A stretch of 64,000 nucleotides of DNA. Source: Gammaproteobacteria bacterium (GTDB taxonomy: Bacteria; Pseudomonadota; Gammaproteobacteria; Steroidobacterales; GCA-2729495). This document shows, piece by piece, positions 4,311-42,884 of this stretch (within the stretch, counting starts at the first letter, position 1; each line of letters starts with the position of its first letter). A program made the position numbers and the translations under genes. The stretch spans positions 1 through 64,000 of the forward strand of contig JAQWPD010000061.1 in the NCBI GenBank assembly GCA_029245525.1, read 5' to 3'. The notes under the pieces are model-generated. The model worked only from the letters and a program-made list of their open reading frames with translations. It was not told the origin of the DNA and ran no database searches.

Positions 4311-7300
4311 ATGCCCGTTCTGCAACTTCAGGGGCCTCCGGCTCTGTCGTCATTCCGCCAAGAAAAATTAGTTGCCCAGCTGCGTGAGATCGTTCCCGAG
4401 ATCAGTGAGGTTAGTGCCCGGTTTACTCATTTTGCAGAGCTCTCCAAAGAACTCGCAGCCGATGAGTTGGACGTATTGGCTGCGCTGCTGAGCTACGGGC
4501 CGCAAATGCCCGACGTGGCTGAAGGTGGTTTTCGTATTACTGTGTTGCCGCGAGTCGGCACGATTTCTCCGTGGTCGAGCTAGGCCACTGAGATCGCTCA
4601 GATCTGCGGTTTGAGTTCGTTGTTACGCGTTGAACGTGGCGTTGAGTATTGCATCGCGTTGCCATCAGCTTTGCGTGATGGCAACGTTGCGGCTATTTCC
4701 GCCGTGCTGCATGATCGGATGACCGATGCGGTGTTTGTCGGTGATGTTGACATAGAGGGTTTGTTCCTTCATCGCGAGCCGACAGTACTTGCCCGTATTC
4801 CATTGCAGAATGAAGGGCGTGAGGCATTGGTTGCCGCAAATATTAAGCTCGGTTTAGCGTTGTCAGAAGATGAAATTGATTATTTGCTTGAGCGTTATAA
4901 TGAAACGGAGCGCGACCCAACTGACGCCGAATTAATGATGTTTGCTCAGGCAAACTCTGAACATTGCCGACATAAAATATTCAATGCCGATTGGGTGGTC
5001 GACGGTGAGGAGCAGCGGAATACGTTGTTTGGCATGATTCGTTCTACGTATGCGGCGCATCCTGACGGGGTGTTGTCAGCGTATTCCGATAATGCCGCTG
5101 TTATAGAAGGGGGGCGCGGTGGTCGGCTGGTGGCTGCCGGGCGTGATCGCCTTTACCGTTATTATCAGGAAGACATTCATCTGGTGATAAAAGTTGAGAC
5201 CCATAACCACCCAACTGCAATATCGCCTTTTCCTGGTGCCGCAACCGGCTCAGGGGGCGAGATTCGTGATGAAGGTGCTACCGGTCGTGGGGCCACGCCG
5301 AAGGCAGGACTTACCGGGTTCTCGGTATCGCATCTGCGGATTCCTGATCATGAGCAACCGTGGGAGCGAAGTATTGGTCATCCCAGCCGTCTTGCTACTG
5401 CGCATGAGATTATGTTGTCGGGCCCTATTGGCGGCGCGGCATTCAATAATGAGTTTGGTCGCCCGAATATTCTGGGCTACTTCCGCACCTTTGAGCAGCC
5501 TGAGAGCGATACCCTGGCTGCCGGGTATCACAAACCGATTATGATTGCGGGTGGTGTGGGCAATATCCGCACTCAGGATGCGATCAAGCCGGAGGTGCCG
5601 GTCGGTGCAAAATTGGTCGTGCTTGGTGGTCCTGCAATGCTGATTGGTTTGGGCGGCAGTGCTGCCTCATCGATGGGCAGCGGGGCATCAAGTGAAGACC
5701 TTGACTATGCCTCCGTGCAACGCGGTAATCCAGAAATGGAGCGACGCGCGCAGCAGGTTATCGATGCCTGTTGGGCGCGGCAGTTGGCCGGCGAAGAAAA
5801 CCCTATTGTTATTGTTCACGACGTTGGTGCGGGTGGTTTGTCCAACGCAGTGCCTGAAGTGGTCGATCACAGTGCCCGCGGCGCAGTCATTAATTTGCGC
5901 GACATTCAGACGGCCGAAGCAGGCATGTCGCCGCTGGAGGTATGGTGTAACGAAGCGCAGGAGCGTTATGTATTGGCGGTGTTGCCGGAGCATATCGAGT
6001 TTTTGGAGGAGGTCTGTCGTCGTGAGCGTTGTCCGTATGCGGTTATTGGCGAAATTGATGGTGGATCACAGTTAAAAGTCTACGACGAGATCAACGACAA
6101 TCATCCGGTAAATATGCCGATGGATACCTTGCTCGGAAAACCGCCGAAAACGACGATGACGGTGACTCGCAGCACACGCAAGATTCCTGAGCTTGATTTA
6201 TGCGGTATCGATTTGGCGGAAGCCTGTCGCCGTGTCCTGCGGTGCCCAACTGTTGCTGACAAATCATTTCTAATACACATTGGTGATCGTACGGTTGGCG
6301 GTTTGGTGTCACGAGACCAGTTGGTGGGTCCGTGGCAGATACCGGTGAGCGATGTGGCAGTAACCGCCCGTAGTTTTGACTCAGATGCTGGTGAGGCAAT
6401 GTCGATGGGCGAGCGTTCGCCGGTTGCGCTGCTAAACCCTGCTGCATCCGGTCGCTTGGCAGTTGGCGAGGCTATTACCAATATTGCCGCGGCTTCAATC
6501 AGTAAAATCACTAACATTCGTTTGTCGGCAAACTGGATGGCGGCTTGTGGGATAGATGCCGAGAATCAGGCTTTGTTCGATACGGTTGCTGCGGTTGCTG
6601 ATGGCTTCTGTCAGACATTGGGTCTCGCTATTCCAGTGGGTAAAGACTCATTGTCGATGCGCACCAGTTGGGATGAAGAGGGCGAGCAGCGCACAGTTTA
6701 TTCGCCTTTGTCATTGATCATTACAGCCTTTGCGCCGGCCGAAGACATTCGTCGCACACTGACCCCACAGCTAAAAAGCGCGCATTGCGATGATTCGGTG
6801 AAATCCCGCAGTTCGGTGTATTTGATTGATCTTGGGGTGGGTAGAAACCGGCTAGGCGGCTCAGTGTTGTCGCAGGTTTTTAATGTTTCTGGCGGCGCAC
6901 CTGCAGATGTGGAAGACCCGCAACTGCTGCGTCGTTACTTTGAGTGCATACAGGTATTAAACCGAGACGGTTTGGTGCAGGCATATCACGATCGTTCCGA
7001 TGGTGGGATGTTCGCTGCTTTATGTGAGATGGCTTTTGCCGGCAGAGCGGGGCTTGATATTGAATTCTCTGAGCAGGATATGCAGACAATCTTTGCGCTA
7101 CTGTTTAATGAAGAGTTAGGCGGTTTGGTGCAGATTGCAGATTCTGAGGCTATGGCGGCGCTGGAGGTTATCGAGCGCTTTGGTCTGGCCAAGTGTTTGC
7201 GCAGGGTCGCTTACGTGACTAATGATGATCAGATTCGTATCAGCGGCAATGAGAACCTTATTTTTTCCGAGCGTCGCACCGAGCTGCATCGTATCTGGTC

Positions 7301-8231
7301 TGAAACCAGCTATCTGATGCAGGCCGAACGAGATAACCCGGAGACTGCCAAGCAAGCCTACGATAGTTTGCTCGACGTGAGTGATCCGGGTTTATGCCCT
7401 AAGGTCAATTTTGACCCATGTGATGATGTCGCCGCACCATTTATTCTCGGTGCCGCTCGTCCACGAGTGGCAATTCTGCGAGAGCAAGGTGTGAACAGTT
7501 TTCAGGAAATGGCCGCTGCATTTGAGCGAGCCGGTTTTCAACCTGTTGATGTGCATATGTCGGAGATGCTGTCGGGCAGCCGCAACCTCGATGACTTCAA
7601 AGGCCTGATTGCCTGTGGCGGGTTCTCTTATGGTGACGTCTTGGGTGCCGGTGGCGGTTGGGCAAAATCGATTTTATTTAACCCTTATGCGCGTGAAACG
7701 TTTGAGGCCTTCTTTAATCGTGACGACAGTTTTACGCTGGGCGTATGCAATGGTTGCCAGATGTTGGCAAACCTTGCGGATATTATTCCTGGTGCTGAGC
7801 ATTGGCCACGTTTTGTTACTAATCTTTCGGAGCAGTTTGAAGCGCGTTTGAGCATGGTTGAGGTGCAGGAAAGTCCGTCTATTTTTCTTGAGGGAATGGC
7901 GGGGAGTCAGTTGATGATTGCGACTTCCCATGGTGAAGGCCGTGCTGAATTTACCACCGAGGACGATCTGACCGCTTTGCAGGGGGGTGGGAAGGTGGCG
8001 ATACGTTACGTTGATAACCGGGGTGCGCAGGCTTCACTGTATCCGGCTAACCCAAACGGCTCCCCCGAAGGTATTGCGGGAATCTGCTCTACCGATGGTC
8101 GCGTTACCGCATTTATGCCGCACCCGGAAAGAGTCTTCCGTACCGTGCAGCATTCTTATCATCCTGAGCATTGGGGTGAGGACGCCCCTTGGTTGCGTAT
8201 GTTCCGCAACGCAAGGGTGTTTGCTGACTAA
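4311..8231 (+). pseudogene. purL: purL, phosphoribosylformylglycinamidine synthase, with an in-frame amber codon
   Basis: The large single-chain FGAM synthetase of purine synthesis makes formylglycinamidine ribotide from FGAR, glutamine and ATP. Codons 1-90 (MPVLQLQGPPALSSF to TISPWSS) match the N-terminal PurS-like domain. A TAG follows at 4581-4583 (codon 91), and the next codons read ATEIAQICG in the same frame and continue to the normal end, giving 1306 codons, the expected length. Family members carry a lysine at this point (SSKATDI), so one base change, AAG to TAG, explains it. The remainder is intact: ATP-binding AIRS-like domains and a C-terminal glutaminase with Cys1146 in GVCNGCQM and the FMPHPER motif. 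The downstream part could only start at TTG 4611 with no ribosome-binding site, and would lack the N-terminal domain. It may be a sequencing error, a true nonsense mutation or read-through. Confidence 0.9.
4581..4583 (+). other. In-frame TAG within purL
   Basis: TAG at codon 91 interrupts an otherwise continuous purL frame. Bases before and after stay in register (AGC TAG GCC ACT GAG), so this is a substitution, not an insertion or deletion. Confidence 0.95.
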
Positions 8232-41381: not shown

Positions 41382-42884
41382 GTGTGTGGAATAGTTGGAA
41401 TTGTTAGTCAGCAACCGGTCGCTCAGTCAATTTATGACGCGCTAATTGTGTTACAGCATCGTGGGCAGGATGCCGCGGGCATCATGACAGATGCAAACGG
41501 CACGTTGTATACGCGTAAAAGCAAAGGTCTGGTCCAGGATGTTTTTCATCAGCGCCACATGAGTTTGTTGCGTGGAAACATGGGCATTGGTCATGTGCGC
41601 TATCCTACGGCGGGCTGGTCGAGTCTTGCCGAAGCTCAGCCTTTCTATGTGAACTCACCGTACGGTATCTGTCTTGCTCATAATGGTAACCTGACCAACA
41701 CCAGCGAGTTGCAGGATATGCTGGTGAAACAGGACAAGCGCCATTTAAATACCGGCTCCGATACTGAAGCATTATTGAATGTCTTTGCGCACGAGTTGCA
41801 ATCACAGTTGGGCGAATTGACACCGGAGGCAATTTTTACAGCGGTGGGGGCGGTGCATGAGCGTTGTCATGGTGGGTATGGTGTTATTTCGATGCTGATT
41901 GGTCATGGCATCGTGGCATTTCGCGATCCGCACGGCATTCGACCGATTGTGCTGGGTAAAAAAGAAACTAAAGACGGTACCGATTACATGGTGGCTTCTG
42001 AGAGTGTTGCTCTAGATGCCCTCGGTTTTGAATTTGAGCGCGATATTCTTCCGGGTGAAGCAATCTTTATTGAGGCTGATGGCACTCTGCATCGGAAGCA
42101 GTGCTGTGAACGTCGAAGTTATACGCCATGTATTTTTGAATTCGTTTACTTCGCTCGACCCGATAGCATCATTGATGGTATTTCGGTCTATAAATCGCGA
42201 ATGCGAATGGGCGACCGGCTTGCTGAGAAAATATTTGAACTAATGCCGGATCACGATATTGATGTGGTGATTCCTATTCCTGATTCCAGTCGCACCAGTG
42301 CGCAGCAGGTGGCACAGAAGCTGGGTGTTAAGTATCGCGAAGGTTTTATCAAGAACCGCTATATTGGTCGTACGTTTATTATGCCGGGCCAGTCCGTTCG
42401 CGAAAAGTCTGTGCGGCAAAAGCTTAATGCTATCGATCTTGAGTTCCGCGATAAGGCTGTGTTGTTGGTTGATGACAGTATTGTCCGCGGTACTACCTCA
42501 AAACAAATTATCGATATGGCTCGTGAGGCCGGTGCGAGGAAAGTGTATTTTGCTTCCGCAGCACCCGCCGTGCGCTACCCAAATGTGTATGGTATCGACA
42601 TGCCGGTATCGAGTGAATTGGTCGCCAGTGGTCGGAACGAGGCCGAGGTGGCTGAGGCCATCGGCGCAGACTGGCTTATTTATCAAGACCTTAGTGATCT
42701 GATCGATGCCGTTAAATACGACAATGGTGATATTACAGAATTTGATACTTCGTGTTTCTCAGGCACTTACGTTACCGATGATGTCAGTCCTGAGTATCTG
42801 ACTCGTATGGAAACCGAGCGTTCTGATGCAGCCAAGCATCGGCGTGAACAACAGCGTCTGGCTGTGGAAGGCAGCTACAGTTAA
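41382..42884 (+). CDS. purF: Amidophosphoribosyltransferase
   Basis: The committing step of purine synthesis: PRPP plus glutamine to phosphoribosylamine. It starts with GTG so that Cys2 of MCGIVGIVS is the glutaminase nucleophile after Met removal; no propeptide is present. The PRTase domain has [15 protein letters not shown] and the PRPP loop [16 protein letters not shown]. It has 500 residues. purL upstream in the window belongs to the same pathway. In Pseudomonas metZ follows purF; here the next gene is lpxH on the other strand, across 121 bases with no clear terminator. Confidence 0.97.

Follow-up and report, generated by a model that had tools for sequence, protein, structure and literature searches.

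The purL gene examined here is complete in every respect except that one codon of its reading frame is TAG. This raises the question of whether the amber codon reflects a real loss of function, a stop that the cell reads through or bypasses, or an incorrect base in the assembly. The window, meaning the whole 64,000-nucleotide stretch of DNA that was analyzed, belongs to a gammaproteobacterial genome of 2.28 Mb; its contig is 69.5 kb long, with 4.6 kb separating the stop from the contig end.

The purL frame and its product

purL occupies a single plus-strand frame of 1306 codons, opening with ATG 4311 and closing with the stop codon 8229-8231. The TAG at 4581-4583, codon 91, is its only internal stop, and no further stops or indels were found when the frame was read across 4311-8231. 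The relevant features are as follows.

4311-8231, plus strand: purL, large-form phosphoribosylformylglycinamidine synthase (FGAR amidotransferase), above the cut-offs of NF003672 and TIGR01735 and matching 1t3t
4311-4580, plus strand: 90-codon fragment preceding the stop, whose residues 38-90 make up the initial half of the PurS-like N-terminal domain of FGAR-AT (PF18076)
4581-4583, plus strand: amber stop within the frame (TAG, codon 91) where every homologue has lysine, from frame reading and homologue comparison
4611-8231, plus strand: open frame following the stop, with TTG 4611 as first possible start and the linker, synthase and glutaminase domains retained, from the frame and domain matches
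41382-42884: purF, intact

Read through the TAG, the product scored 1944 bits against NF003672 (cut-off 783) and 1804 bits against TIGR01735 (cut-off 1123), in both cases over the whole length, and aligned to residues 13-1299 of Salmonella PurL (1t3t). The domains PF18076, PF18072, PF02769, PF22689 and PF13507 are present in one chain, and the FGAR-AT N-terminal domain spans residues 38-152. With its whole-length matches and all four domains, the read-through product is a large-form PurL (TIGR01735/NF003672). The fragment preceding the stop alone matched PF18076 with 50.3 bits over profile positions 2-54 of 115. An earlier sequence-only reading, which described a purL of normal length interrupted only at codon 91, is thus borne out by both the re-read frame and the profile matches.

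Conservation of codon 91

The residue equivalent to codon 91 is lysine in all 111 homologous loci compared (60 AAG, 51 AAA), where it forms part of an SSKAT motif, as the sequence-only reading had anticipated. Both other members of the genus that were compared carry AAG at this position within an intact purL, and both are 89% identical to the query over the first 1200 bases. The local difference from these relatives consists of two adjacent bases, AGT AAG in the relatives and AGC TAG here, the AGT-to-AGC change being synonymous. Neighbouring differences of this kind occur often in the gene, with ten pairs within the first 1296 bases. Because lysine is invariant among homologues and AAG is present in both same-genus genomes, the AAG-to-TAG change, previously proposed as the simplest event, is plausible, with the qualification that the neighbouring base differs as well.

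Constraint on the remainder of the gene

Near-invariant columns were defined as those at least 97% conserved among 80 homologues. Codon 91 aside, the query departs from 14 of these columns, as does the intact purL of a same-genus relative, and 13 of the departures are common to both. Across purL, dN/dS relative to this genus member was 0.10, and constraint on the stretch following the stop is no weaker than on that preceding it. A decaying pseudogene is contradicted by the lack of additional stops or indels, the equal number of changed columns (14 vs 14) and the low dN/dS. Together, the absence of decay and the unbroken frame indicate that the stop arose very recently or does not exist in the organism; the same choice had been offered from the letters alone, and the invariant lysine and the single copy of the gene agree with it.

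One further substitution was observed in the glutaminase domain, where codon 1283 (8157-8159) encodes Tyr in place of the Trp of an SWHP motif found in 80 of 80 homologues and in the same-genus relative. This codon is two base changes from TGG, hence a single error is unlikely there.

Back-up copies and the purine pathway

purL is single-copy in the genome. A search for an additional purL or a split PurSLQ system, a check proposed in the sequence-only reading, found neither in the genome, and PurS was likewise absent; a phage-borne purL was also considered and rejected, as no near match was obtained. Among the purine genes sought, purF, purD, purN, purM, purE, purC, purB, purH, purA, guaA and guaB are unbroken, purK not being among the genes established. 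purC was initially a candidate for a second broken purine gene, having been returned with one TAG, and was dismissed when reading of the locus showed this to be its normal terminal stop. With the other purine genes intact and no second purL, the pathway looks to be in use.

Decoding of TAG and downstream restart

Both release factors are intact: RF1 carries its PxT motif (PET) and GGQ, and RF2 carries SPF. The terminal stops of 394 long open reading frames comprise 162 TAA, 143 TAG (approximately 36%) and 89 TGA, and purC itself ends naturally in TAG. No internal TAG was found in conserved genes at approximately 305 places matched to E. coli open reading frames (approximately 105,000 aligned residues). 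Stop usage, the intact RF1 and the survey of E. coli homologues therefore contradict genome-wide recoding of TAG. Because TAG ends 143 of the 394 frames, it is a normal and much-used stop in this genome, which makes both recoding and efficient suppression implausible.

Readthrough at this one codon, through a leaky context or a suppressor tRNA, would still allow PurL to be made, though at a reduced level. It would accommodate the full constraint that persists in frame past the TAG in the sole copy of an important gene. A suppressor tRNA had been suggested earlier, but none with anticodon CTA occurs among the 33 tRNA genes found, and both lysine tRNAs (CTT and TTT) are normal. This absence is strong rather than absolute evidence, as the set is incomplete, lacking Ala, Ile and Glu-TTC genes; tRNA genes of these kinds are common in rRNA operons, which draft assemblies lose. 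Furthermore, suppression of TAG would lengthen hundreds of proteins, and both release factors are intact, so that we regard readthrough as unlikely. That a lineage should make its only FGAM synthase through a leaky lone amber at an invariant lysine, with low purine synthesis and no suppressor tRNA, is very improbable.

Restart downstream of the stop, at TTG 4611 or ATG 4719, would have to yield an enzyme able to function with the greater part of its N-terminal domain missing. Starting at 4584 the frame stays open, and every catalytic domain lies downstream of the stop, but no convincing Shine-Dalgarno sequence was found at the candidate restart codons, including these two. For TTG 4611 this accords with the sequence-only reading, as the upstream sequence ATCGCTCAGATCTGCGGT contains nothing resembling one. 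The same reading held that restart would cost the N-terminal domain; the domain would indeed be damaged and halved, but not removed whole, since its last approximately 50 residues (domain 38-152) would be kept. According to a study of Salmonella PurL, homologues function poorly without PurS, the counterpart of the N-terminal domain, and approximately 80% of the activity is lost as the N-terminal and linker domains unfold (PMC3815217). Restart giving a working enzyme is accordingly very improbable.

Lone stops in this genome and across the order

A survey for other stops covered approximately 1.77 Mb of the genome, and E. coli purL was outside the query set of the E. coli comparison. Among the approximately 305 matched places, a single conserved gene had a clear internal stop. 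This gene, which is gcvPB-like and encodes a glycine dehydrogenase subunit (stop at L160, G000:C10, position 224, minus strand), has TAA in place of the conserved Tyr of ILDYGIHAP; the codon is 224 bases away from the contig end, and gcvPB is intact in both same-genus relatives. Most of the apparent stops in this comparison were spurious antisense frames and were filtered out, and most candidates from coding scores proved to be places where one gene ends normally and its neighbour begins. No frameshifted homologues were seen among approximately 300 matched places, and the assembly is in this respect otherwise clean.

A frame-by-frame scan also detected a probable late in-frame TAA in an alpha/beta hydrolase gene (PF12695; L183, G000:C29, position 536, plus strand), 536 bases from the contig end, with the Pfam match reaching slightly across the stop. 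This observation suggests a third lone stop in the genome.

The order-wide purL search included 396 genomes, mostly fragmented drafts. A lone in-frame stop was present in 3 of the roughly 150 matches listed (approximately 2%): the TAG of the query, a TGA in genome G011 and a TAG in genome G056. The G011 gene (L012, G011:C111), from the same family, carries its TGA at the site equivalent to query codon 405. Stop-creating changes account for 3.5% of single-base changes in purL, and for a genome of this size the predicted number of false stops is approximately 0.7 at a consensus error of 1e-5 and approximately 7 at 1e-4. The lone stops seen fit this prediction and are the background expected of draft assemblies. 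The genome is fragmented and its tRNA set is incomplete, and on these grounds it is probably metagenome-assembled; a literature search for work on premature stops in such genomes found none.

Origin of the amber codon

Codon 91 is thus abnormal and isolated, its gene shows no decay, and the assembly contains further lone stops of this kind at other loci. We favour a base-level consensus error in the draft genome over a real and recent loss of function, readthrough and restart being unlikely, and consider such an error probable. It is consistent with the lysine in 111 of 111 homologues, the AAG in both relatives, the lack of a second purL or PurS, the unbroken purine pathway and absence of decay, the lone stop in gcvPB, and the three interrupted genes among the purL matches listed. 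Several observations count against it: at 4.6 kb from the contig end there is no obvious edge artefact, the assembly shows no frameshifts at the places matched, the adjacent AGT-to-AGC change looks like natural variation, and a rare or recent real nonsense allele would leave identical traces.

Such an allele, through which FGAM synthase was lost from the sequenced strain or sub-population, leaving it reliant on imported purines with the rest of the pathway not yet decayed, is a possible but less probable origin of the stop. An otherwise intact frame with no second copy is what it would leave, a recent event would show no decay yet, and the lone stop in gcvPB could mark a second lost gene. However, purL is intact in both relatives, the remaining purine genes that were sought are unbroken, there is no sign of relaxed selection, and losing the FGAM step alone would idle the remaining de novo pathway. 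If the TAG is real, it represents an ordinary recent loss of a single biosynthetic step.

Under a consensus error, the true codon 91 would most likely encode lysine, and the product is predicted to be an ordinary working enzyme of 1306 residues. The locus then carries a caution: because automatic gene callers would split purL, one false base in a draft genome can make a prototroph look like a purine auxotroph.

Comparison with known systems

The read-through protein is co-linear with full-length Salmonella StPurL (PDB 1t3t), with the N-terminal, linker, synthase and glutaminase domains in the same order. Unlike Gram-negative large-form PurL proteins such as StPurL, it carries a stop at position 91, where lysine is invariant. 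In this feature, the gene resembles those with sporadic in-frame stops in draft genomes, such as purL of G011 and gcvPB of this genome, in that a single stop occurs with no surrounding decay and is absent from close relatives.
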